The notes under the pieces: model-generated
Databases searched by the model: none
What the model saw: only the letters and a program-made list of their open reading frames with translations
Told to the model about the DNA's origin: nothing
In this document: positions 19,016 through 64,000 of the stretch, piece by piece
Numbering within the stretch: position 1 is the first letter of the stretch
Layout of the letters: every line of letters begins with the position of its first letter
NCBI RefSeq assembly: GCF_029278605.1
Contig: NZ_CP119572.1
Span: 868,001-932,000 of the forward strand
Direction of reading: 5' to 3'
DNA from: Cupriavidus sp. WKF15
GTDB taxonomy: Bacteria; Pseudomonadota; Gammaproteobacteria; Burkholderiales; Burkholderiaceae
Length of the DNA: 64,000 bases
Program-made: the position numbers and the translations under genes

Positions 19016-20867
19016 GTGCGCCCAGCATGGGCGCACTCTTGTGGGTGCAAGTCCCACCGTAAGTTGATCACAGCGAACGAAGCGAAGCGCAACTGCGTGA
19101 GGGTGACCGAGCGTGGGGAGGAAGCGTGGAGCGAAGCTGCGAGCCGAGGGACACGAACCGGATAGAAGGCGGTGCCGACCAGGACGAGCGGGCGCAATTC
19201 CGCGAAGTTCTTGTGATCAAGGGGAGGCGGCGTAAATCCGGCGGTTGTGCAGCGAAGGAGTGCGTTCTTACCTGGGGACGCCCCGCCTTGCGCCTGAAAG
19301 GGCGACGGCGTCGAGCCGGAGCGGGGTCTCAGCAGAGGTCATATTAGTTGGGGGTAGCGCCGGGAAGGCTCGAGTCCACCGACGAAGGACCGAACGAGAG
19401 GGAGTGTTCGAAGCCGTGTCGATGCAACAGGCATTGCGTCAGAAGCCCGCGCGAGCGGGGCGAGCGAGGGAAACGGACGGTGAAGCCGGCCGGGAACTCG
19501 CTCGTGACGAAGCCGGCGGCCCGCGACGCGAACCGGAGGACACAGGGTCGGCGCTGCTGGCAGCGGCGCTGACGCGAGAGAACCTGAAGCAGGCGTTCAG
19601 GCGGGTCCGACGCAACAAGGGTGCCGCTGGCGTAGACGGTCTGGATATTGATCAGACCGCTCGCCATCTGGTGTCGGCGTGGCCGGAGATTCGCCAGCAA
19701 CTGCTCAAGGGGACGTACCGGCCCAGTCCGGTACGGCGGGTAACGATTCCGAAGCCGGACGGAGGCGAGCGTGAGCTTGGTATCGCGACGGTGACGGATC
19801 GGTTGATCCAGCAGGCGCTGTTGCAGGTATTGCAGCCGATTCTGGACCCTACCTTCAGCGAGCATAGCTATGGCTTCCGTCCCGGCAGGCGTGCGCACGA
19901 CGCGGTGCTAGCCGCACAGTCGTACGTGCAATCGGGTCGGCGAATAGTGGTGGACGTGGACTTGGAAAAATTTTTTGACCGAGTCAACCACGACATCCTG
20001 ATTGATCGCCTACAGAAGCGCATCGAGGACCCCGGAGTCATCCGGCTGGTCCGGGCGTATCTGAACAGCGGGCTGATGGATGGCGGGGTGGTGCTGCAAC
20101 GGTACGAGGGCACGCCGCAGGGCGGTCCCCTGTCGCCGTTGCTGGCCAACGTGCTGCTCGATGAGGTGGACAAGGAGTTGGAGTGCCGAGGCCATTGCTT
20201 CGTGCGCTACGCCGACGATGCGAACGTGTACGTTCGCAGTCGGAGGGCGGGCGAGCGGGTGATGGCGCTGTTGCGGCGGCTGTACGGCAAGTTGCGCCTG
20301 AAGGTCAACGAGGCAAAGAGCGCGGTGGCGAGCGCGTTTGGCCGCAAATTCCTCGGCTACAGCTTCTGGGTAGCCGCAGGAGTGGTCAAGCGCAAGGTGG
20401 CCGTTAAGCCGCTGCTGACGTTCAAACAACGCATCCGCGAACTGACCGGTCGCTCAGGCGGCCGGAGTCTACGTGCGGTCGTGGAGCGGCTGCAGCCATA
20501 TGTACGGGGTTGGAAGGCCTACTTCCGGCTGGCGCAAACACCTCATGTCTGGCGAAAGCTGGACGAATGGATGCGTCATCGGTTGCGCGCGATCCAACTC
20601 AAGCATTGGCGCTACGGCACTACGATCTACCGGGAATTGCGGGCGCTGGGGGCTGCGCATGCGACAGCCCAGCGGGTGGCGGCCAACAGCCGCTGCTGGT
20701 GGCGCAACAGCGATGGCGAGCTAAACCGCGTGCTGAATATCGCCTTCTTCGACCTACTGGGGATGCCTCGCCTTGCTTAACCTCAACCTCTCGAACCGCC
20801 CGGTGCGGACCCGCATGCCGGGTGGTGTGGCAGGGGCGCAGCCCGGATGGCTGCCTCCTATGCCGAT
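19016..20867 (+). mobile_element. Group II intron, class C, with encoded reverse transcriptase
   Basis: About 1852 bp. The 5' end GTGCGCCCAGCATGGGCGCA is the class C start and domain I hairpin, followed by the GTGGGTGCAAGTCCCAC hairpin, CGTTCTTACCTGGGGA and CAGCAGAGGTCAT, all resembling the well-studied class IIC intron RNA of Oceanobacillus. Domain V is at about 20793-20829 (GAACCGCCCGGTGCGG to GGTGGTGT) and domain VI at 20830-20867 with a bulged A before TGCCGAT. The 3' end is estimated from domain VI. Insertion directly after an intrinsic terminator fits class C target choice. All parts appear intact, so it may still be mobile. Confidence 0.88.
19422..20780 (+). CDS. ltrA: Group II intron reverse transcriptase/maturase
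   Basis: Copies and helps splice the host intron. About 452 residues from ATG 19422, the chosen start because GAGAGGGA lies upstream; GTG codons at 19404 and 19416 are alternatives. RT domains are seen in order: KQAFRRVRRNKGAAGVDG, RRVTIPKPDGGERELGI, YGFRPGRRAHDA, VVDVDLEKFFDRVNHD, TPQGGPLSPLLANV and the catalytic YADD in FVRYADDANVY. The maturase domain follows (YVRGWKAYFRLA). There is no C-terminal HNH endonuclease, as is usual for class C. The gene lies in domain IV of the intron and its stop precedes domain V by about 12 bases. Confidence 0.92.
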   Translation: MQQALRQKPARAGRARETDGEAGRELARDEAGGPRREPEDTGSALLAAALTRENLKQAFRRVRRNKGAAGVDGLDIDQTARHLVSAWPEIRQQLLKGTYRPSPVRRVTIPKPDGGERELGIATVTDRLIQQALLQVLQPILDPTFSEHSYGFRPGRRAHDAVLAAQSYVQSGRRIVVDVDLEKFFDRVNHDILIDRLQKRIEDPGVIRLVRAYLNSGLMDGGVVLQRYEGTPQGGPLSPLLANVLLDEVDKELECRGHCFVRYADDANVYVRSRRAGERVMALLRRLYGKLRLKVNEAKSAVASAFGRKFLGYSFWVAAGVVKRKVAVKPLLTFKQRIRELTGRSGGRSLRAVVERLQPYVRGWKAYFRLAQTPHVWRKLDEWMRHRLRAIQLKHWRYGTTIYRELRALGAAHATAQRVAANSRCWWRNSDGELNRVLNIAFFDLLGMPRLA

Positions 20868-50793: not shown

Positions 50794-52194
50794 TCAGTCG
50801 AGCGCCCGGTTCTTCGACTCGATATCGACCATGTAGATCGCGAGCGCCGCCACGGCCAGGAACGATGAGAGCAGCACCAGGGCCAGCGTGAAATGCGTGG
50901 TCATGACCGGGGCAACGATGGCCGGCGCGAACAGGCCGCCGAAGCGGGCCATGGCGCCCGCCGTACCCATCCCGCTCGCGCGCAGGTCGGTCGGATACAC
51001 CTCCGGCGTGAAGGCGTAGAGCGCGCCCCAGGTGCCGAGCAGCGAGAAGCTCATCAGCAGGGTGGAGCCGACCACCAGCGCGGGAGACTGGCCCAGGCTG
51101 TAGAGCATGCAGCCCGCGGCGCTGAGCAGCAAGAAGCCGATCAGCGTCGGCTTGCGGCCCCAGCGCTCGACGCCATGCGCGGCAAGCGCGAAGCCCGGCA
51201 GCTGCACCAGCGCGAGCAGGATCAGGAAGACCTGGCCGCGCATGAAGCCGAAGCCCTGGCCGGCCAGCTTCACCGGCAGGTAGACGAAGACGCCGTAGTA
51301 GGCGATCGAGATCAGCGCCCACGCCACCAGCAGGCTGATGCTGCGGCGACGGAAGCCGGTCGCGAACAGCGCCAGCACCGACTTGCGCTCCATCTTCTGC
51401 GGCTCGAGCGCGCCGATTTCAACCGAAACGCGATTGGCGGCCGCTACACGCTGCAGCACCGCGCGTGCCTCGGCCGAGCGTCCCGACTTGTTCAGGTAAA
51501 GCGGCGACTCGGGCACGAAGAAGCGGCAGACCACGCCGACCAGCGCAGGGATGCCGGTGACCAGGAAGATCAGGCGCCAGGCTGCATCGCCGTGCGAAAC
51601 GGCGATCAGCGCCAGCACCGCCAGCAGGATCGTGCCGACGGCCCAGAACGATTCCAGCAGGACCAGCCAGCGGCCGCGACGGTCCGAGGGCAGGAACTCG
51701 GCCATCATGGTGTAGTCGACGGGCAGGGTGCCGCCGACGCCGATGCCGGTCAGGAAACGCAGCACCAGCAGCCACTGGAAATCCGGCGCGAACGACGACG
51801 CGACACCGCAGATGGCGTCGATGACCACCGCCATCATCAGCACGGGCCGGCGGCCGATCCGGTCGGCCAGGCGGCCGAACGCGAACGCGCCGATCAGCAT
51901 CCCGACAAAGAACATGGTTCCGGTCTGCAGCGCCGTGGGCACGGGAATGCCGAAAGTCTTGGCAATCGAGGGCGCGGTGAAGCCGATCGACAGCACCTGC
52001 ATCGCGTCGGCGAGCCAGACCAGGCCGAAGATCACGAACAGCCGGTACTGGAAGCGGCCGACGCCGGCGGCGCGGATGCCTTCCTCGATCGTGATGGCCC
52101 GGGACGTTGTTGCCCTCGGGTTCGACGGCGGGGCCGAGCTTACCGACGCGTCAGCGATGGTCGTGGGGGGCATGGATGAAATGGATGACGACAT
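50794..52194 (-). CDS. MFS transporter, NiaP-like, candidate nicotinate importer
   Basis: 466 residues with 12 transmembrane helices, SP/aromatic-acid symporter branch. The cytoplasmic loop 2-3 motif is GRLADRIGRRPVLM, and helix 4-5 has RFLTGIGVGGTLPVDYTMMAEFLP, characteristic of the NiaP/benzoate group. The second half repeats the motif as GVERWGRKPTLI. The N-terminal 35 residues are Ser/Pro-rich and probably cytosolic. Its place beside the nicotinate-degradation genes, in the same direction as nicCA, makes nicotinate uptake likely; this is inference. The leader has tandem 8-bp repeats. Confidence 0.85.
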   Translation of the reverse strand: MSSSISSMPPTTIADASVSSAPPSNPRATTSRAITIEEGIRAAGVGRFQYRLFVIFGLVWLADAMQVLSIGFTAPSIAKTFGIPVPTALQTGTMFFVGMLIGAFAFGRLADRIGRRPVLMMAVVIDAICGVASSFAPDFQWLLVLRFLTGIGVGGTLPVDYTMMAEFLPSDRRGRWLVLLESFWAVGTILLAVLALIAVSHGDAAWRLIFLVTGIPALVGVVCRFFVPESPLYLNKSGRSAEARAVLQRVAAANRVSVEIGALEPQKMERKSVLALFATGFRRRSISLLVAWALISIAYYGVFVYLPVKLAGQGFGFMRGQVFLILLALVQLPGFALAAHGVERWGRKPTLIGFLLLSAAGCMLYSLGQSPALVVGSTLLMSFSLLGTWGALYAFTPEVYPTDLRASGMGTAGAMARFGGLFAPAIVAPVMTTHFTLALVLLSSFLAVAALAIYMVDIESKNRALD

Positions 52195-52762: not shown

Positions 52763-55699
52763 TCAGTGCGCGGGTGCCGCGCGCAGGCGCGCGACGGTGG
52801 CCTCTACGTCCTGCCACGCGGGTTTGTCGGGCGCGAAGCGCGCGCGCAGATATTGCGTGACCGCGGTGACCTGCTTGTCGTCCAGGCTGTCGGCGTAAGA
52901 CGGCATGGCGCCGAGCGTGCTGTTCGGCGGCGCCGGCATGCCTTGCAGCAGCACCTGGATCACATTGTCGGGCCGGTCGCTGTGCAGGTTCGTGTTGAGT
53001 GCCAGCGAAGGCTTCACGCCGAACTGGCGCATGCCCTGCTCTGACTGGTGGCACACGGCGCACGCGCTCTGGTACAGGCGCGCCGCGGGGCCGCCCAGCG
53101 ATCTGGCTGCCTCGGCGCTGCGCCGCTCGTACTGCGCGGCCTGCGCGGTGATTTGCGCGGGCGCGGGCGGCGGGGCGCTGAACGACGCGACGTAGTGCGC
53201 AATGGCGCGCACATCCGATTCCGGCAGTTGCGCCAGCTCTTCCACGACGGGAGCCATCGGCCCCGCGGCAGCGCCGTGGTGCGCGGCATAGCCACCGCGC
53301 AGGTAGGTGAACAGGGCGTCTTCGGTCCACGGTACCGGCGCGCGCGACAGCGCGGTCAGCGCGGGCGCATCCCAGCCTTCGGCGGTGCCGCCTGTCAGGT
53401 AGTGGCGCCCGCCTTTCTCGCCGCCGAGTGCGTTGCGCGGCGAATGGCAGGCGCTGCAATGACCCAGGCCCTCGGCCAGGTAAGCGCCGCGGTTCCATTG
53501 CGCCGATCGCGTGGCATCCGGCTGGAATGGCGCGTTACGGTGGAACAGCAGGTTCCAGCCGGCAAGCAGCGGACGCAGGTTGAACGGGAAGGCCAGTTCG
53601 GTGCGCGGCACGCTGGTCTTCACGGGCTCGGCCGACATCAGGTAGGCATACAGCGACTGCATGTCGGCATCACTGATCTTCGCAAAGGCCGTGTAGGGAA
53701 ACGCCGGGTACAGCCGGCGGCCGTCGCGATGGATGCCTTCGCGCATGGCGCGCTCGAATGCGGCGAATGACCACGTGCCGATGCCAGTCTCGGCGTCGGG
53801 CGTGATGTTGGTGCTGTAGACCGTGCCGAACGGCGTTTCCAGCGCCAGGCCGCCGGCATTCTTCACGCCGCCCGGTGCGGTATGGCAGACCGCGCAGTCG
53901 CCGGCGGCCGCTACCAGCCGTCCGCGTTCGAGCGTCGCGGCCGAATAGAAGCCGGGTTCCGGCGGCGCCACGGGTGCGATGGGCGCGCGCCACGGCAGCA
54001 CCGTCGCGCACAGGCCGGCAGCGGCGGCGGCCGCGGCGGCGAGCCAGCCGCGCTTGCTGCGGCGCTTCTCAGGCGGTTGCGTGTCCAGTGCCAGGCGGAT
54101 GCACTCGGCGCTGAACGGCGGTTCGCGCAGGCGTACGCCGGTGGCATCGAAGATCGCGTTGGCGACGGCCGCCGCCGCAGGCAGTGTCGCGGCGGGGCCG
54201 GCGGCCAGGGTATTGCGCGTAGCCAGGGTGCCGGCCATGCGGATTTCCGGCACGTTGGTGCAGGTCACCGTGGGCAGTGTGTCTGATGCCTCCGGCTGCC
54301 CGGCGGGCCATGCATCAAAGCCGGACGCTGGCGCGGTCAGCTGCCTTGCGGCCTGCGCCACCACGTGTTCGAGTGCTGGTGAAGCGGGCGTGGCGCGCTG
54401 CGGCACGGCCGCTTCGCTGTCGTGACCGATGGTCACACGCGTGACGGCGAGTTCGCCGGTGGTGCCATCGACTTCCACTTCCGCGACCCACGCCGACCAG
54501 CTTTGCGCATCATCGCTCTCTACGGCATGCGCATACGCGAAGCCGCGACCACGACGCACGTTGCCCGAGCGCGCAGCGCCGGCACGCGGCGCTGACGGGT
54601 TCCATCCGGCGCGTTCGGCCACGTCGCGAACCAGCGCCGCGCCGCGCGCGTCGTCGAGGTGTTCCAGCCGCAGTGCTACCGGATCGGCGCCGGCACTCGC
54701 GGCAATCTCGTCAAGGTGCGATTCCTGCGCGAATACCCGTGCGCGGGCGCTGGCGAGCGGTGCATCCGGCGAGCCGGCATCCGCACCGGCAGCGCTGATG
54801 TCGATGTTGGGGATACGGTACGGCGGCAGCACGCTGTCGCTCGCTTGCGCGTCGCCGGCGACTTTGGTCACCGGAGCCGGCGTATGGGTCAGCCACAGCG
54901 CGAGCGGCAGGGCCGGCGCTGCGGTGCCGCCATGCGTGGCGGCGTACGCGTCGATGACGGCGCCGGCGCGCGCGCTGTCGATGTGCCAGTCCAGCGTCGC
55001 ATCGGCCAGCCCGATGTCTTCAGCGGTAATGGTTCGCCGCACGCAGCAGCCAGCGGCGTGCGCCATCAGCGCGGCGTCGGCGGCGGCATGGTGCGCGAGC
55101 AGGCCAGGATCGGCACTGTCGTCGGCGCTTTGCCAGCACACCAGCGTGACTTGATGTTCGGCGATGCCAAGCAGCGCGGCCAGTTCGGCACGCAGCGCGC
55201 CCGGACGCGTGCTGGGCAGCCAGACGTGCAGCGTGCCGTCGCGCCAGTCCGCGACCGCCGTACACGTCGCTGTCGCTGCCTCCACGCCAGCCAGCGGCCA
55301 CTGGTAGTGCTGTGCCTGGCGTGCGCACGACTGTGCAAGCGCCCCCGCGGCGTTGCCAAGCTGCGCGAGCGCCTGCCGCCGTACGGGTGCCGTATCCGCT
55401 GCTGGCGCAGCGGTCCAGCGCGCGCGCAGTGAAGCAGCCGCGTGCGCGGCCTGTTCGGGGGTGTCCGCCACCACGCCAGCGAAGTTGTTCCTGACGACGA
55501 TGGCACGCACGCCCGGCGCCGCCGCGGCAGCGTCCTGGTCCTCCACGCCGAGCAGGCGCGCTACGAGCGGCTCGCCGCCGGCCCAGCGCAGTCCGGGCGG
55601 GCGCAGCACATGGGCGGACAGGCAGCGCGGCAATGGCGGCGGGCTCTCCGCCGTCATCGAGACCGCGGTGCCGGAGCGGAGTGCCAGCGTGTCGTTCAC
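52763..55699 (-). CDS. NicB-like protein: degenerate Mo-hydroxylase domain fused to triheme cytochrome c
   Basis: Likely electron-transfer subunit of nicotinate dehydrogenase, which converts nicotinate to 6-hydroxynicotinate. 978 residues from GTG 55699, which overlaps the nicA stop (GTGA). Residues 1-530 resemble the Mo-binding subunit of xanthine dehydrogenase relatives (VFAQESHLDEIAASAGADP, NAIFDATGVRLREPPF) but have lost the glycine-rich cofactor loop near 190 and the catalytic glutamate, G-E being replaced by G-P in LAAGPAATLP. A membrane helix is at about 551-572. Three haem sites follow: CAVCH (602), CSACH (748), CAVCH (880). No N-terminal signal: the first domain should be cytoplasmic and the cytochromes periplasmic. 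Confidence 0.85.
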   Translation of the reverse strand: MNDTLALRSGTAVSMTAESPPPLPRCLSAHVLRPPGLRWAGGEPLVARLLGVEDQDAAAAAPGVRAIVVRNNFAGVVADTPEQAAHAAASLRARWTAAPAADTAPVRRQALAQLGNAAGALAQSCARQAQHYQWPLAGVEAATATCTAVADWRDGTLHVWLPSTRPGALRAELAALLGIAEHQVTLVCWQSADDSADPGLLAHHAAADAALMAHAAGCCVRRTITAEDIGLADATLDWHIDSARAGAVIDAYAATHGGTAAPALPLALWLTHTPAPVTKVAGDAQASDSVLPPYRIPNIDISAAGADAGSPDAPLASARARVFAQESHLDEIAASAGADPVALRLEHLDDARGAALVRDVAERAGWNPSAPRAGAARSGNVRRGRGFAYAHAVESDDAQSWSAWVAEVEVDGTTGELAVTRVTIGHDSEAAVPQRATPASPALEHVVAQAARQLTAPASGFDAWPAGQPEASDTLPTVTCTNVPEIRMAGTLATRNTLAAGPAATLPAAAAVANAIFDATGVRLREPPFSAECIRLALDTQPPEKRRSKRGWLAAAAAAAAGLCATVLPWRAPIAPVAPPEPGFYSAATLERGRLVAAAGDCAVCHTAPGGVKNAGGLALETPFGTVYSTNITPDAETGIGTWSFAAFERAMREGIHRDGRRLYPAFPYTAFAKISDADMQSLYAYLMSAEPVKTSVPRTELAFPFNLRPLLAGWNLLFHRNAPFQPDATRSAQWNRGAYLAEGLGHCSACHSPRNALGGEKGGRHYLTGGTAEGWDAPALTALSRAPVPWTEDALFTYLRGGYAAHHGAAAGPMAPVVEELAQLPESDVRAIAHYVASFSAPPPAPAQITAQAAQYERRSAEAARSLGGPAARLYQSACAVCHQSEQGMRQFGVKPSLALNTNLHSDRPDNVIQVLLQGMPAPPNSTLGAMPSYADSLDDKQVTAVTQYLRARFAPDKPAWQDVEATVARLRAAPAH

Positions 55700-56193
55700 G
55701 GCTGCGCTCCTTGCGCGCATTCGCGCTGCAGGACCGCCGCGCGCAGCACGGCGCGCACGATCTCCACGTGCGTGCCGCAGCGGCACAGGTTGAAGCGCAG
55801 CGCTTCGCGGATCTCGGCCTCGCTCGGGTCCGGATTCTCCGCGAGCAGCGCCTTCGCGGTCATGATCATGCCGTTGAGGCAGTAGCCGCACTGCGCGGCC
55901 TGCTCGTCGATGAACGCCTGCTGCACCGGGTCGGGGTGCGCGGGCGTGCCCAGTCCCTCCAGCGTGGTCACGTCATGGCCAAGCACGGCCTTCACCGGCA
56001 GCACGCACGAGCGCGCGGCGGTGCCGTCCACCAGCACCGTGCAGGCGCCGCACTGGCCCAGTCCGCAACCGTACTTCGGGCCATTGCAGGCCAGGTCGTT
56101 GCGCAGGATATAGAGCAGTGGCGTGTCGGGCGCCACGCAGACCGTATGGTCGGCGTGGTTGACATGCAGCGTCAGGGGGCGGGGCGCGTTCAT
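55696..56193 (-). CDS. nicA: Nicotinate dehydrogenase small [2Fe-2S] subunit
   Basis: Iron-sulfur subunit that carries electrons from the Mo centre to the cytochrome. 165 residues. The plant-type cluster is Cys43, Cys48, Cys51, Cys63 (GCGLGQCGAC), and the second cluster near the Mo site is Cys102, Cys105, Cys137, Cys139 (CGYCLNG and NLCRCG). No TAT or other signal is seen, so the complex faces the cytoplasm. It overlaps the NicB-like gene by four bases and follows nicC by 127 bp, probably one transcript from the nicC promoter. Isoquinoline oxidoreductase small subunits are similar; context favours nicotinate. Confidence 0.92.
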   Translation of the reverse strand: MNAPRPLTLHVNHADHTVCVAPDTPLLYILRNDLACNGPKYGCGLGQCGACTVLVDGTAARSCVLPVKAVLGHDVTTLEGLGTPAHPDPVQQAFIDEQAAQCGYCLNGMIMTAKALLAENPDPSEAEIREALRFNLCRCGTHVEIVRAVLRAAVLQRECAQGAQP

Positions 56194-56320: not shown

Positions 56321-57580
<1,260 letters not shown>

Positions 57581-57758: not shown

Positions 57759-57845
57759 CAATCGCAACCGCGGACGACCGGCATCACTGCCGGGAGCGGC
57801 CGGGTAGACAAGGCATTCCCAAGACAACAGATGACGGAGTCGACA

Positions 57846-58598
57846 GTGCAGAAAGTTTTCCGAATCGGCCAGATCGTGCCGAGCTCCAACACCACGATGG
57901 AAACCGAGATCCCGGCCATGCTGACCGCGCGGCAGCAGGTCCGCCCCGAGCGCTTCACCTTCCATTCCAGCCGCATGCGCATGAAGAAGGTGGTCAAGGA
58001 AGAACTGGCCGCGATGGATGCCGAATCCGACCGCTGCGCCGTGGAGCTTTCCGATGCGCGCGTGGACGTGCTCGGCTACGCCTGCCTGGTCGCGATCATG
58101 GCGATGGGGCACGGCTACCACCGCAAGTCGGAGCAGCGCCTGAAGGCCCACACCGTCGAGAATGGCGGCGACGCCCCGGTGATCACGAGCGCCGGTGCGC
58201 TGGTTGACGCACTCAAGGTGATCGGCGCGAAGCGCATCGCCGTGGTCGCGCCGTACATGAAGCCGCTGACCGAGCTGGTGGTCGACTACATCCGAAACGA
58301 AGGCTACGAAGTCGTCGACTACCGCGCACTGGAAATCCCGGACAACCTCGAAGTGGGCCGCCACGATCCCGCCAAGCTGCCGGGTATCGTCGCGCAAATG
58401 AAGATTGCCGATGTCGATGCCATCGTGCTGTCGGCCTGCGTGCAGATGCCGTCGCTGCCGGCCGTGGCCAAGGTCGAGGCGATGACCGGCAAGCCGGTGA
58501 TCACCGCGGCCATCGCCACCACGTATGCGATGCTGCGCGCACTGGACCTGGAGCCGGTCGTGCCGGGTGCCGGCGCGCTGCTGTCGGGCGCCTACTGA
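57846..58598 (+). CDS. nicE: Maleate cis-trans isomerase
   Basis: Converts maleate to fumarate, the last step of nicotinate breakdown. 250 residues, Asp/Glu racemase fold. FRIGQIVPSSNTTMETEIPA is the family N-terminus, and the two catalytic cysteines are Cys80 in GYACLVAIMAMG and Cys198 in LSACVQMPSL. The GTG at 57846 is preferred because GGAG lies 7 nt before it and the length equals other NicE proteins; an ATG at 57831 is possible. First gene of nicEDXF. Confidence 0.93.
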   Translation: MQKVFRIGQIVPSSNTTMETEIPAMLTARQQVRPERFTFHSSRMRMKKVVKEELAAMDAESDRCAVELSDARVDVLGYACLVAIMAMGHGYHRKSEQRLKAHTVENGGDAPVITSAGALVDALKVIGAKRIAVVAPYMKPLTELVVDYIRNEGYEVVDYRALEIPDNLEVGRHDPAKLPGIVAQMKIADVDAIVLSACVQMPSLPAVAKVEAMTGKPVITAAIATTYAMLRALDLEPVVPGAGALLSGAY

Positions 58599-58608
58599 GG
58601 GCCGCACC

Positions 58609-59442
58609 ATGAGCACCTTCCTCTATGGCGGCAACGTCCAGGCCAATGACATCCGTCAACACTATCTGCGCTACGGTGGCAACGATGGCGAGCGCGCGTC
58701 GCGCGACGCCGTGATCATCGTGCCGGGCATCACGAGCCCGGCGATCACCTGGGGCTTCGTCGGCGAACAGTTTGGCCAGCACTTCGATACCTACGTGCTG
58801 GACGTGCGCGGCCGCGGCCTGTCTGAAGCGGGCGACACGCTGGACTATAGCCTCGATGCGCAGGCCACCGACGTGATCGCCTTCGCGCAGGCATTGGGCC
58901 TGCAGCGCTACGCGATCGTCGGCCACTCGATGGGCGGACGCATCGGCGTTCGCGCCGCGCGGCAGCAACCGGCAGGCCTGACGCGCCTGGTGATGGTCGA
59001 TCCGCCGGTCTCTGGCCCGGGCCGCCGCGCTTACCCGGCGCAACTGCCCTGGTATATCGATTCGATCCGCCTCGCGCGCGCCGGCATCGACGCCGAGCGC
59101 ATGCGCCGCTTCTGCCCGACCTGGACGGAAGAACAACTGCGCCTGCGCGCCGAATGGCTGCACACCTGCGACGAACGCGCGATCCTGGCGAGCTTCAACG
59201 GCTTCCATGAGGACGACATCCACGCCGACCTGCCGCACGTGTCGGTGCCGACGCTGCTGATGCGGGCGGGCCGCGGCGACGTGGTGCGCGATGAGGACGA
59301 ACAGGAAATCCGCACGCTGCTGCCGGGCGTGCTGGTGAGCCACGTGGCCGATGCCGGCCACATGATCCCATGGGACGACGAGGCCGGCTTCTACCGTGCC
59401 TTCGGCGATTTCCTCGGCGCGCCATTGCCCGCGCTGGCCTGA
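58609..59442 (+). CDS. nicD: N-formylmaleamate deformylase
   Basis: Alpha/beta hydrolase that removes formate from N-formylmaleamate, giving maleamate. 277 residues. The nucleophile is Ser107 in VGHSMGGRIG, with Asp131 in MVDPPVSG and His251 in ADAGHMIPWD completing the triad. It starts 10 bp after nicE. The general fold occurs in many esterases, but the position between nicE and nicX fixes the role. Confidence 0.92.
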   Translation: MSTFLYGGNVQANDIRQHYLRYGGNDGERASRDAVIIVPGITSPAITWGFVGEQFGQHFDTYVLDVRGRGLSEAGDTLDYSLDAQATDVIAFAQALGLQRYAIVGHSMGGRIGVRAARQQPAGLTRLVMVDPPVSGPGRRAYPAQLPWYIDSIRLARAGIDAERMRRFCPTWTEEQLRLRAEWLHTCDERAILASFNGFHEDDIHADLPHVSVPTLLMRAGRGDVVRDEDEQEIRTLLPGVLVSHVADAGHMIPWDDEAGFYRAFGDFLGAPLPALA

Positions 59443-59465
59443 TTACCGCGATCGGAGGAGCGAAC

Positions 59466-60545
59466 ATGCCCGTAAGCGATTACGACCTGACCCAGGCGTG
59501 GAAGCAGGTGCTCACGCTGTCGAAGCTGGAAGCCGGCCAGACGGTCACGGTGTTGACCGGTGCCGCCACGCATCCGCAGACATTGCGTACCGCCATGGTG
59601 GCGGCCGCGTCGATGGGCACCATCGTCAACCGGCTCGACCTGCCGCCGGTCAATGGCGAGAAGGCGCTGAGCCGCGACGCACTGGCCTATCTCGGCACCA
59701 CGCCGCTGACCGGCAACCGCGCCGCCATTGCAGCGCTCAAGGCGAGTGATCTTGTGCTCGACCTGATGACGCTGCTGTTCTCGCCCGAGCAGCACGACAT
59801 CCTGAGCGGCGGCACGAAGATCCTGCTTGCGGTGGAGCCGCCCGAGGTGCTCGTGCGCATGGTCCCCACCGAAGCCGACCGCAAGCGCGTGAAGGCCGCC
59901 ACGGCGCGGCTGTCGCGCGCGCGGGAAATGCATATCGTCTCCGACGCGGGCATGGACTTGCGCTGCAGCCTCGGCGAGTTCCCGGCGATCAGCGAGTACG
60001 GCTTCGTCGACGACCCCGGCCGCTGGGACCACTGGCCGAGCGGCTTCGTGCTGACGTGGCCGAACGAAGGCGGCACCAACGGCACCATCGTGCTGGACCG
60101 CGGCGACATCCTGCTGCCGATGAAGTCTTATATCCAGGAGCCGATCCGCATCAAGGTCGAGGGCGGCTATGTGAGGGCGATCGAAGGCGGGCTCGATGCC
60201 GAGCTGCTGGCCGACTACATGGCATCGTTCAACGACCCGGAAGCGTATGCGATGTCGCATATCGGCTGGGGCCTGCAGCCGCGCGCGAGCTGGTCCGCGC
60301 TGGCCATGTACGACCGAGAGGCCACCATCGGCATGGACGCACGCGCATTCGAAGGCAACTTCCTGTGCTCGTTCGGCCCCAACAACGAAGCGGGCGGCAG
60401 CCGCACTACCGCCTGCCATATCGATATCCCGGTGCGCCGCTGCACGGTCAGCCTCGACGGCGAGCCCGTGGTGGCGCGGGGCAAGGTGACGGACGGCCAC
60501 CACGCGCCCGTCAACACTTTATTCAAGGACGCCAGCCATGCATGA
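59466..60545 (+). CDS. nicX: 2,5-dihydroxypyridine 5,6-dioxygenase
   Basis: Fe(II) extradiol-type dioxygenase that opens the ring of 2,5-dihydroxypyridine to N-formylmaleamate. 359 residues, a fold related to M29 aminopeptidases. The iron ligands are expected in MSHIGWGLQPRASW and TTACHIDIPVRRC, where His and Asp are present. GGAGGAG precedes ATG 59466. It overlaps nicF by eight bases. This is the diagnostic gene of the pathway. Confidence 0.94.
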   Translation: MPVSDYDLTQAWKQVLTLSKLEAGQTVTVLTGAATHPQTLRTAMVAAASMGTIVNRLDLPPVNGEKALSRDALAYLGTTPLTGNRAAIAALKASDLVLDLMTLLFSPEQHDILSGGTKILLAVEPPEVLVRMVPTEADRKRVKAATARLSRAREMHIVSDAGMDLRCSLGEFPAISEYGFVDDPGRWDHWPSGFVLTWPNEGGTNGTIVLDRGDILLPMKSYIQEPIRIKVEGGYVRAIEGGLDAELLADYMASFNDPEAYAMSHIGWGLQPRASWSALAMYDREATIGMDARAFEGNFLCSFGPNNEAGGSRTTACHIDIPVRRCTVSLDGEPVVARGKVTDGHHAPVNTLFKDASHA

Positions 60546-61185
60546 CGAAGTCCAGACCTACCAGCGGCAAGGCTTTGGCACCGCCATGGAGATCCGGCCG
60601 CCGTACGGGCTGCTGATCATCGATTTCGTCAACGGCTTTGCCGATCCGAGGGTCTTTGGCGGCGGTAATATCCCGGAGGCCATCCGCAATACCCGGCCGC
60701 TGCTGCGCGCGGCGCGCGAGCAGGGCTGGCCGGTGGCGCACAGCCGCATCGTGTTTGCCGATGACGATGCCGATCACAACATCTTCACGCTGAAGGTGCC
60801 CGGCATGCTGACGCTCAAGGAAGACAGCCACAACAGCGCGATCGTGCCGGAGCTGGCGCCGGCAGCCGGCGAGCTGGTGGTGCGCAAGACCGTGCCGTCG
60901 GCGTTCTTCGGTACCTCGCTCGCGGCGTGGCTCACGCAGCGCGGCGTGCAGACGCTGCTGGTGGCCGGCTGCGTCACCAGCGGCTGCGTGCGCGCGAGCG
61001 TGGTCGACGCGATGTCGCTCGGCTTCCGGCCGCTGGTGCTGTCGGACTGCGTCGGCGACCGCGCGCTCGGCCCGCACGACGCGAACCTGTTCGACATGGA
61101 GCAGAAGTACGCCACCGTGCTGAGCCGCGACGAAGCGCTCGCGCAGATCGCGCAGCGCGCGGCGGGCGTGCGCGCGGCGGCCTGA
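60538..61185 (+). CDS. nicF: Maleamate amidohydrolase
   Basis: Hydrolyses maleamate to maleate and ammonia. 215 residues, isochorismatase-like fold. The triad is Asp29 (LLIIDFVNGF), Lys117 (VVRKTVPSAF) and Cys150 (GCVTSGCVRAS). The ATG lies inside the nicX stop region, giving strong coupling. Last gene of the rightward operon; it is convergent with the TetR regulator gene after 27 bp. Confidence 0.93.
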   Translation: MHDEVQTYQRQGFGTAMEIRPPYGLLIIDFVNGFADPRVFGGGNIPEAIRNTRPLLRAAREQGWPVAHSRIVFADDDADHNIFTLKVPGMLTLKEDSHNSAIVPELAPAAGELVVRKTVPSAFFGTSLAAWLTQRGVQTLLVAGCVTSGCVRASVVDAMSLGFRPLVLSDCVGDRALGPHDANLFDMEQKYATVLSRDEALAQIAQRAAGVRAAA

Positions 61186-61212: not shown

Positions 61213-61956
61213 TCAGCCGGCCATCGCGCTGCGTTTCCGGGCCGGCTTGCCGGAAGGCCTGGCCGGCGCGGGCGGGGCGTCGGGGACGGCGCCGGGCACC
61301 GCCACGGCGCGCAGCACCGTCTGCTGGATCACATCGCGCCAGTGCGACACCGCGGCCGGGCTCATCATGGGCTCGCCAAGAAAGGCGCTGAGCGTATGAT
61401 GGTTCGAGTTATAGAAGTAGCCGAGCGAGGCGATCACCATGTAGACGTCGCGCGCGCCGGCGTCGGGTCGGAACAGGCCCGACGCCTTGCCGCGCGACAG
61501 GATACCGTCGAGCACGGACAGCGCGTAGCTGGAAATGTCGCGCAGCCGCACGGACTTGCGCGCGTGCTTGCCCTGGCTGATGTTCTCGCTAGTGAGGATC
61601 GCGACGAACTCCGGGTGCTCGAGGTAGTAGTGCCAGATGAAGTCGATGAGCTGCGAGAGCGCGCGCACCGGATCGGCCGCGTCGAGTTCGCCTTCGAGTT
61701 TCTGCTCGGCTTCATTGAGCTGCAGGTAGATGGTCTCCAGGACTTCGACGAACAGCTTTTCCTTGCTGCCGAAGTAGTAGTAGATCATCCGGTCGTAGGT
61801 CTTGGCGAGCGAGGAAATGCGTTCGATGCGGCCGCCGTCGTAGCCGCGCTGCGCGAAGACCTTGATGGCCGCCTTCAGGATCCGGTCGCGGCTGTCCTGC
61901 GCCTGCCGGGCGCGCGTGCCGACTGCCGCGCGCTGGGTTGCGGTCTTGAGGGTCAT
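61213..61956 (-). CDS. TetR-family regulator, NicS-like
   Basis: Probable repressor of nicotinate genes. 247 residues from ATG 61956. The helix-turn-helix is at about 22-65 (ILKAAIKVFAQRGYDGGRIERIS, KTYDRMIYYYFGSKEKLF); the ligand domain follows, and a Pro/Ala-rich basic tail ends the protein. In Pseudomonas putida a TetR protein (NicS) represses nicAB and a MarR protein (NicR) the other genes; no MarR gene is in this window. The start at 62097 is rejected because it would cover the divergent promoter. The minus-strand -10 TATACT (61994-61999) is a candidate. Confidence 0.88.
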   Translation of the reverse strand: MTLKTATQRAAVGTRARQAQDSRDRILKAAIKVFAQRGYDGGRIERISSLAKTYDRMIYYYFGSKEKLFVEVLETIYLQLNEAEQKLEGELDAADPVRALSQLIDFIWHYYLEHPEFVAILTSENISQGKHARKSVRLRDISSYALSVLDGILSRGKASGLFRPDAGARDVYMVIASLGYFYNSNHHTLSAFLGEPMMSPAAVSHWRDVIQQTVLRAVAVPGAVPDAPPAPARPSGKPARKRSAMAG

Positions 61957-62050
61957 GTTGGATGGCTCGGCATGAGGTCTGTGTCTGGCAGGCAGTATAA
62001 CGGTGGCATCGAGGGTGCCGCCTGAAGCGAAGCGGCAAAATTCACGAGCT

Positions 62051-64000
62051 ATGACTGCGACAATCCTCGATTCCGTTCCCGAGGCGGAGGCCTCCACCCC
62101 GCGCGCGCAGCGCCTGGCGCTGCTGCAGGCCAGCGGCGTGCTGCTGGTAACGCGCGCCCCGCAGGCGGCGGCGCGTCCCGCGCCAGGCCAGCCGGGCGCC
62201 GCGTCGGACTATGTGCCGGCGCTGCCCGATATCTTCGTGGCCGTGCGCGATACCGGCGAGGTGCTCGCCTTCAACGGCCATGTCGACCTGGGCACCGGTA
62301 TCCGCACCGCGCTGGCGCAGATCGTCGCCGAAGAGCTCGACGTGCCGCTCGCGCGCGTGCGCATGGTGCTTGGCCATACCGAGGCCACGCCCAACCAGGG
62401 CCCGACCATTGCCAGCGCGTCGATCCAGATTTCCGCCATCCCGCTGCGGCGCGCGGCCGCGCAGACGCGCGCATGGCTGCAGACGCGCGCGGCGCAGCAA
62501 CTGGGCGTGGCGCCGGAAACGCTGGAGGCCGACGACGGCGTGTTTCGCGTAAAAGGCGTGCAGGACGGCATCGGCTACGGCGCCCTGGTGGCCGGCGGAC
62601 ATGTCGAGCTGCCGCTGGCCGACGACGTGCCGACCAAGCCGGTCGAGGCCTATCGCATTGTGGGCCGTGGCGCGGGCCGCGTGGATATCCCCGACAAGGC
62701 GCGCGGGGTGCTGACCTTCGTGCATGACGTGCGCGTGCCCGGCATGCTGCATGGCCGCGTGGTGCGCCCGCCGTACGCCGGCCGCGATGCCGGCGATTTC
62801 GTCGGGACCAGCCTGCTGGAAGTCGATCGCGATTCCGTGCGCGATGTGCCGGGACTGGTCGACGTCATCGTGCAAGGCGATTTCGTCGGCGTGGTCGCCG
62901 AGCGCGAGGAGTACGCGGTATTGGCGGCGCGGCGCCTGCGCGTGCGCTGGAAGCCGGTCCCGCCGCTGCCGGCGCTCGACGATCCCGAGCCTGTGTTGCG
63001 TGCCAATCCGGCCACGCGCCGCGCCTTGCTGGACGACGGCGAGATGCCGGCGGCCAATGCCGGCACTACGCTGGCACGCCACTATGTCTGGCCTTACCAG
63101 ATGCACGGCTCCATCGGCCCGTCATGCAGTGTGGCGGACTGGCGCGAGGACGGCCTGACGGTATGGTCGGGCACACAGAACCCGCATGTACTGCGCATTG
63201 ACCTGGCGCGGCTGTCCGGACTTGGCGAGGACAGCATCGAGATCGTGCGCATGGAGGCCGCAGGCTGCTACGGCCGCAATTGCGCCGATGATGTTTGCGC
63301 CGACGCCGTGCTCCTTTCGCGCGCGGTGGGCCGCCCGGTGCGCGTACAGCTCTCGCGCGAGCAGGAACACCTGTGGGAGCCCAAGGGTGCGGCGCAGCTG
63401 ATGGACGTCAGCGCGACGCTTGGCGCCGGCGGCGAATTGCTCGGCTACGACTTCGTCAGCCGCTATCCGTCCAACGATGCGCCGACGCTGGCGCTGCTGT
63501 TGACCGGGCAGGTGCCCAATGCGCCGTGCATGCTCGAGATGGGCGACCGCACCGCGGTGCCGCCATACGCCTACGCGGGCCGCCGCATCGGCTGCGACGA
63601 TACGCCCGCCATCGTGCGTGCATCGTGGCTGCGCGGGGTATCGGCACTGCCGAATACGTTCGCGCATGAATGCATGATTGACGAACTGGCGAGCGAGGCC
63701 GGCACGGACCCCGTGGACTTCCGCCTGCGCCACCTGCCGGACGAACGCGCCGCCGACCTGCTGCGCGCCGTCGCGCAAGCCGCGGGCTGGCAACGCGGGA
63801 CACAGGGTTCACGCGGCGTACCGGATGCGGACGGCAAGCTGCGTGGCCGCGGCGTGGCCTACGCGCGCTATATCCACAGCCGCTTTCCGGGCTTCGGCGC
63901 GGCGTGGGCCGCATGGATCCTCGATGTTTGCGTCGATGCCGACACTGGCCAGATCGCCGTCGAAAAGATCGTCGTGGGCCAGGACACCGGCATGATGGTC
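62051..64000 (+). CDS. Molybdenum hydroxylase large subunit, NicB/IorB-like (3' end outside window)
   Basis: Probable catalytic subunit of nicotinate dehydrogenase, partial: 650 codons open to the window end. The arrangement begins with the cofactor domain (NGHVDLGTGIRTALAQI from residue 76), then the aldehyde oxidoreductase a/b hammerhead (VHDVRVPGMLHGRVVRPPYA), and the second cofactor region GCYGRNCADDVCADAVLLS at 405, with intact glycines. LPNTFAHECMIDELASEAG is also canonical. The part holding the catalytic glutamate lies beyond the window. No signal peptide. It is divergent from the TetR gene by 94 bp and has only a weak ribosome site. Confidence 0.87.
   Translation, partial: MTATILDSVPEAEASTPRAQRLALLQASGVLLVTRAPQAAARPAPGQPGAASDYVPALPDIFVAVRDTGEVLAFNGHVDLGTGIRTALAQIVAEELDVPLARVRMVLGHTEATPNQGPTIASASIQISAIPLRRAAAQTRAWLQTRAAQQLGVAPETLEADDGVFRVKGVQDGIGYGALVAGGHVELPLADDVPTKPVEAYRIVGRGAGRVDIPDKARGVLTFVHDVRVPGMLHGRVVRPPYAGRDAGDFVGTSLLEVDRDSVRDVPGLVDVIVQGDFVGVVAEREEYAVLAARRLRVRWKPVPPLPALDDPEPVLRANPATRRALLDDGEMPAANAGTTLARHYVWPYQMHGSIGPSCSVADWREDGLTVWSGTQNPHVLRIDLARLSGLGEDSIEIVRMEAAGCYGRNCADDVCADAVLLSRAVGRPVRVQLSREQEHLWEPKGAAQLMDVSATLGAGGELLGYDFVSRYPSNDAPTLALLLTGQVPNAPCMLEMGDRTAVPPYAYAGRRIGCDDTPAIVRASWLRGVSALPNTFAHECMIDELASEAGTDPVDFRLRHLPDERAADLLRAVAQAAGWQRGTQGSRGVPDADGKLRGRGVAYARYIHSRFPGFGAAWAAWILDVCVDADTGQIAVEKIVVGQDTGMMV

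Follow-up and report, generated by a model that had tools for sequence, protein, structure and literature searches.

In a 64,000-nucleotide stretch of the genome of Cupriavidus sp. WKF15 (the window; contig NZ_CP119572.1, positions 868,001 to 932,000), the nic (nicotinate degradation) gene cluster contains, besides nicA and the gene nicB1 for an intact molybdenum (Mo) hydroxylase subunit, a gene for a 978-residue protein, NicB2, in which a degenerate Mo-hydroxylase domain (the pseudo-domain) is followed by a membrane helix and a triheme cytochrome c. We consider it probable, though well short of certain, that NicB2 is a membrane cytochrome with a pseudoenzyme half that derives from a duplicated fused NicB and docks the small subunit NicA, the catalytic subunit NicB1, or both, at the membrane. 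The split layout is widespread: we read 73 NicB2 proteins, that of the window included, and none has the cofactor and catalytic elements in place.

The nicB2 reading frame (52763-55699, minus strand; GTG start) is real, as judged from its translation, Pfam matches and the homologous NicB2 set. Its pseudo-domain spans residues 20-543 (54071-55642, minus strand); residues 143-187 match Pfam MoCoBD_1 above the cut-off (6.2e-07), and residues 398-427 match MoCoBD_2 weakly and below it (0.054). When the part of NicB1 that lies in the window was compared to the whole genome, the nicB2 region was the second-best match after NicB1 itself (E = 2.7e-41, 35% identity), and the two proteins are 33% identical over their alignment; chance similarity is ruled out by this match together with the fold match described below. 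In the xanthine oxidase family, the GHVDLGTG, GCYGRN and GxGES motifs supply cofactor contacts and the catalytic base. NicB2 has nothing that aligns with the roughly 240 N-terminal residues of NicB1, GHVDLGTG among them; the GCYGRN loop is absent, and Pro502 (54194-54196, minus strand) occupies the aligned place of the catalytic glutamate of GxGES (G-E replaced by G-P). Taken alone, NicB2 retains the Mo-subunit fold and lacks the cofactor loop, the N-terminal cofactor half and the catalytic glutamate motif. The protein continues, after about 545 residues, with a single predicted membrane helix (residues about 551-569; 53993-54049, minus strand; from hydropathy and charge bias, with KRRSKR on its N-terminal side) and three haem motifs on the same strand, CAVCH (residues 602-606; 53882-53896), CSACH (residues 748-752; 53444-53458) and CAVCH (residues 880-884; 53048-53062); the closest solved relative of this cytochrome part is 8gy3_A (E = 3.1e-101). 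A first-pass annotation of the window had proposed the fusion and the three losses from the sequence. Reading frame, Pfam, alignment and the three CXXCH motifs agree on the former, and alignment bears out the latter far beyond the window; a glutamate motif or cofactor loop elsewhere in the 978 residues was looked for and is absent, so that the pseudoenzyme claim survives.

The intact paralogue, which the same annotation had placed at 62051, is complete when read past the end of the window. nicB1 (plus strand) starts at GTG 62003 or ATG 62051 and runs through 64000 to about 64330; from GTG 62003 it encodes 775 residues (L009:2003-4330), matches Pfam MoCoBD_1 and MoCoBD_2, and has all three elements, namely the N-terminal cofactor half, the GCYGRN loop (63263-63280) and the GxGES glutamate. 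In the piece 62003-64000, MoCoBD_2 (residues 62-184) precedes MoCoBD_1 (residues 333-560), a circularly permuted order that the alignment shows to be common to fused NicB. The 3' neighbours of nicB1, on the opposite strand, encode a MarR regulator and a TctC-family protein. The subunit might have belonged to another enzyme with its own small subunit downstream, but a genome-wide search with NicA found in this region only NicA itself and no NicA-like gene beside NicB1; the next NicA-like genes are at least about 168 kb away or on other contigs. The match to one NicA-like gene of this genome (G000:C1:1792138-1792602) holds one in-frame TGA. NicA of the window (55696-56193, minus strand; 165 residues) has two [2Fe-2S] domains (Pfam Fer2 and Fer2_2), and its gene overlaps the start of nicB2 by 4 bases.

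We compared these genes to their relatives by searching a profile of the NicB2 domain in genomes of the same order (399), class (369), phylum (398) and family (299), sets that overlap; all searches up to that point covered 1466 genomes. The loci read comprised 79 hand-picked stretches of at most 20 kb, 13 more that completed genes, and 29 named loci. Loci L123-L202 were chosen by hand from the profile matches to span genera, and the counts below describe a subset of a longer match list; L201 was left out, and L188 and L130, cut by locus ends, were first set apart, the gene of L130 being later read as L209. The 73 NicB2 include three near-identical pairs (70 clusters at 98%), and counts at aligned columns use 44 representatives. 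The GCYGRN loop and GHVDLGTG were each found in 73/73 NicB1, in 26/26 fused NicB and in 0/73 NicB2. GxGES was present in 72/73 NicB1 (the exception, L029, is cut by a locus end) and in 26/26 fused NicB, and at the aligned place in 0/44 representative NicB2. The sole string of this type in the NicB2 set, GGGES in L166, lies in a linker off the aligned glutamate; a glutamate is kept at the aligned column in 9/44 representatives, never within the motif. All 73 NicB2 have three CXXCH motifs in their last 430 residues.

Three architectures were distinguished. In the first, an intact Mo domain and a cytochrome are fused in one NicB chain with NicA directly upstream (26/26). In the second, that of the window, the two are split between NicB1 and NicB2 and were not found intact on one chain; in the window the genes stand in a nic-type context (nicC, nicE, nicD, nicX and nicF-like genes adjacent) and the three c-type haem motifs are present, and a NicA-type gene lies directly upstream of nicB2 in 72/73 loci, the remaining one being cut by a contig end. 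In Cupriavidus, Pusillimonas, Halomonadaceae and the families f4 and f49, about 512-614 residues separate the NicA stop from the cytochrome part; Alloalcanivorax has about 477, and the Burkholderia-type group 329-517. In the third, found at five loci (L143, L144, L154, L156, L158), a NicA-like protein and a Mo subunit are accompanied by a cytochrome without pseudo-domain, and no nic gene is near. These five cytochromes were sorted by the very lack of the domain, so only the export signals of these systems, given below, count as independent evidence. A sixth such set (L217, G1140) stands outside the signal count.

Several single loci depart from this picture. One genome (G1304; L136, L204) has nicB1 with nicC, nicE, nicD, nicX and nicF, and neither NicB2 nor a close NicA was found in it; it seems to be a split system that lost the NicA-NicB2 pair. 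Another (G1370; L148, L149) has a split nic system and also a fused intact NicB beside NicA, the latter without other nic genes near; this second system may act on another substrate. The most eroded NicB2 domains seen (L226, L227) lie on a different contig from NicB1 (L150, L152; genomes G1122 and G1155), and in these two genomes the partner proteins would need to be assembled from distant genes. L218 (G1122:C2:882306) and L221 (G1140:C1:1461581) are cytochrome paralogues of other enzymes with one in-frame TGA in the match. A NicB-type cytochrome stretch also lies about 450 bases from IS6100 on the conjugative plasmid pBYT5-1 of Pseudomonas sp. BYT-5 (L239), where the incomplete table of PLSDB lists no gene.

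The sides of the membrane can be read from charges and export signals. Lysine plus arginine is more frequent on the N-terminal side of the helix in 72/73 NicB2 (1 tie), and the same bias is seen in 23/26 fused NicB (2 ties, 1 reversed). Because haem attachment to c-type cytochromes takes place in the periplasm, this bias suggests that the cytochrome lies outside and the pseudo-domain inside the cell, on the cytoplasmic side of the single helix, where it would be the only large part of NicB2. A twin-arginine (Tat) signal with a hydrophobic run was found in 7/7 Mo subunits of the comparison group (the five of the third architecture and those of two outgroup loci without an observed cytochrome), compared to 0/73 NicB1 and 0/26 fused NicB (0/99). 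An apparent remnant of the signal is found in NicB1, QRLALLQASGVLLVTR here vs. SRRSFLKAGGMLLVTL in L143. No export signal was found on NicA, whether of nic-type systems or of the third architecture, with N-termini judged by eye. Since they lack an export signal, NicA and NicB1 of the nic-type systems are taken to be cytoplasmic.

In the tree of Mo domains, a single clade (SH-aLRT 99) that is nested among fused NicB unites the split NicB1 rows with L150 and L152, and in the tree of pseudo-domains over shared columns, which used 22 of the 44 representatives, the 22 pseudo-domains form one clade with support 99. The cytochrome tree places one fused row, L173, within the pseudo group at weak support values (84 and 87), whereas it lies outside that group in the Mo trees; a single pseudo clade in the cytochrome tree was not rejected (approximately unbiased [AU] test, p = 0.394). 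All trees come from a short ('quick') search. Several independent origins of the pseudo-domain were considered and rejected, as the trees do not require them. Given the trees and the motif counts, one duplication followed by separate losses is the simplest history, and the pseudo-domain NicB2 most likely arose once from a fused intact NicB. Under this history, a fused NicB with Mo domain and cytochrome, as in many relatives, would have been duplicated; one copy would have shed the cytochrome and become the soluble catalytic NicB1, and the other would have shed its first ~240 residues and the cofactor and catalytic residues and become NicB2.

The pseudo-domain appears to be maintained. Its ratio of nonsynonymous to synonymous substitution rates (dN/dS) is well below 1, which indicates purifying selection, and its invariant residues are common to several families. 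A hand-written check of core motifs missed 2 to 10 of the 73 NicB2 per motif, so that the core is best described as conserved and not uniform. A single-chain AlphaFold2 model gave a confident fold over most of the pseudo-domain, which is thus predicted to fold; the cytochrome half was poor in both models, as were residues ~430-500 of the window's domain, so that the arrangement of the domains was not taken from these models.

The most likely role of the pseudo-domain, as far as comparative sequence evidence can tell, is to dock NicA and/or NicB1 at the membrane. This role is suggested mainly by the contrast between the third architecture and the nic-type systems: where the catalytic parts are outside the cell, the cytochrome needs no inner domain, whereas soluble parts inside the cell need a handle on the membrane protein. 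The first-pass annotation had likewise suggested that the residual domain is a scaffold or anchor, and from its retention, the export signals, the charge bias and this contrast that is the best-supported reading. In the mechanism that we envisage, NicA and/or NicB1 would dock on the cytoplasmic pseudo-domain of NicB2, and electrons from nicotinate hydroxylation at Mo would pass through the two [2Fe-2S] clusters of NicA to NicB2 and on to the respiratory chain, with membrane ubiquinone as one possible carrier from the cytoplasmic clusters to the periplasmic haems. More tentatively, and with rather less than even confidence, we suggest that a respiratory enzyme lost its Tat signal and so moved from the periplasm to the cytoplasm, while its cytochrome stayed periplasmic. 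The enzyme would at first have been fused to this cytochrome and later, once duplication had taken place, been held by a pseudoenzyme with no other task than that of a cytoplasmic dock, electrons crossing the membrane perhaps via ubiquinone near the dock.

Several observations weigh against docking by a cytoplasmic pseudo-domain. Single-chain models cannot reveal contacts and do not show the docking. No mechanism is obvious that would carry electrons across one cofactor-free helix, with the [2Fe-2S] clusters in the cytoplasm and the haems in the periplasm, which could mean that the topology is read wrongly. A loose twin-arginine pattern occurs in 2/71 NicB1 and 1/26 fused NicB (3/97), although in none once a hydrophobic run is required. 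The substrate of many fused relatives is not assignable from context, with at least three other nic genes in the stretch read at only 7/26 loci. Furthermore, the pseudo-domain changes at two to three times the rate of NicB1, and the Burkholderia-type group no longer has its first half, a pattern that slow decay would also produce.

Among the alternatives, it is unlikely, yet worth serious consideration, that the pseudo-domain replaces half of a Mo-subunit dimer, fused NicB being a homodimer and NicB1 pairing with the inactive copy in NicB2, which would mainly stabilise or mature NicB1 or NicA. Several members of the family dimerise via their Mo subunits, the core that survives in NicB2 is the C-terminal lobe, and NicA and NicB2 are a gene pair that is jointly missing in one genome; however, the hammerhead and the first Mo lobe are gone in the Burkholderia-type group, and PaoABC, a relative, is a single heterotrimer. 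The faster evolution, the stepwise shortening (NicA stop and cytochrome part being ~329-614 residues apart) and the strongly eroded copies in L226 and L227 would also fit a decaying relic without a role, which persists since deletion exactly to the helix is rare. Against such a relic stand the low dN/dS, the invariant residues shared by families, the confident fold of most of the domain, and complete loss in 0/73 NicB2 even though cytochromes without the domain exist among relatives (8gy3_A and the five loci of the third architecture), and we judge it distinctly improbable. We reject, as having hardly any probability left, the notion that NicB1 is a piece of another enzyme and NicB2 with NicA a separate protein: nicB1 lies ~6 kb from nicA-nicB2, and on a different contig in two genomes, but no small subunit adjoins it, it groups with nic-type Mo domains in the tree, nicC and nicX are found in 68/72 and 63/72 split NicB1 loci, respectively, and NicB2 accompanies 71/73 split NicB1.

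If NicB2 is indeed a docking cytochrome, it would show plainly how the catalytic domain of a redox enzyme can be put to new use as a structural anchor, and the series from intact fusion through split pair to eroded core could be read in living species. The topology raises the question, for nicotinate respiration as a whole, of how a Mo hydroxylase in the cytoplasm passes electrons to periplasmic c-type haems. In annotation, a NicB2 gene should not be taken for a catalytic 'nicotinate dehydrogenase subunit B'.

The rest of the cluster is divided between the two strands, with nicT, nicB2, nicA and nicC on the minus strand and nicE, nicD, nicX, nicF and nicB1 on the plus strand. nicT (50794-52194) encodes a transporter of the major facilitator superfamily (Pfam MFS_1; NCBIfam aromatic acid/H+ symport family, below cut-off) and nicC (56321-57562) an FAD monooxygenase (FAD_binding_3). 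On the plus strand, nicE (57831-58598; Amdase) is maleate-isomerase-like and named by nic order, nicD (58525-59442; Abhydrolase_1) encodes an alpha/beta hydrolase, and the frame 59370-60545, without a Pfam family above cut-off, we take from the nic order to be nicX, for 2,5-dihydroxypyridine dioxygenase; nicF (60538-61185; Isochorismatase) encodes an isochorismatase-fold amidohydrolase. Between nicF and nicB1 sits a TetR regulator gene (61213-62097, minus strand; TetR_N and TetR_C_29). Genes were named from Pfam matches and the familiar nic gene order, with which the Delftia order in the part of PMC4572682 available to us was also used. The closest named relative is C. yeoncheonensis (89%). 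Elsewhere in the window lies a group II intron (19097-20780, plus strand), with Rfam RF02001 at 19097-19267 (107 bits) and a reading frame (19245-20780) that encodes a reverse transcriptase domain (RVT_1) and a maturase domain (GIIM).

NicAB of Pseudomonas putida KT2440, on which Jimenez et al. are said to have worked in 2008, reportedly has the intact Mo domain and the cytochrome on one chain. The system described here is like it in the NicA [2Fe-2S] subunit, the Mo domain, the cytochrome and nicC, nicD, nicE, nicF and nicX, and differs in that a chain of its own forms the catalytic Mo subunit, with only a degenerate copy left on the cytochrome chain. The membrane-bound aldehyde dehydrogenase of Gluconobacter oxydans (PDB 8gy3) provides, with 8gy3_A, the closest solved cytochrome to NicB2 and, with 8gy3_C, the best fold match of the pseudo-domain, which matches the domain profile in one colinear stretch. 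Its cytochrome chain has 444 residues and no Mo-like domain, and the match begins only at NicB2 residue 558. NicB2 shares a homologous triheme cytochrome with 8gy3-like and L143-type systems, whereas the cytochrome of those systems, unlike NicB2, is free of the Mo-like domain, a lack by which the L143-type was defined; the Mo subunit has a Tat signal in 5/5 L143-type systems vs. 0/73 NicB1, a count that does not include 8gy3. The first-pass annotation had regarded the three-part nicotinate dehydrogenase as a new architecture, which it is not: PMC10269826 already reports a 'tripartite' NicA/NicB1/NicB2 enzyme from Burkholderia gladioli and Bordetella, and PMC4572682 names nicA/nicB1/nicB2 in Delftia, the same three genes in nic loci as here. 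Neither paper, in the parts available to us, states that the N-terminal domain of NicB2 is degenerate or where it is located. Likeness to these strains rests on gene names, and the Burkholderia-family NicB2 copies in our survey are mostly shortened. In the limited collection of papers searched, no statement was found that NicB2 is a pseudoenzyme or cytoplasmic. Compared to these systems, what is new here is the pseudoenzyme nature of NicB2, its widespread layout, the purifying selection on it and its predicted folding, together with its most likely single origin from fused NicB, the disappearance of the Tat signal, and a position inside the cell that would explain the need for an anchor.

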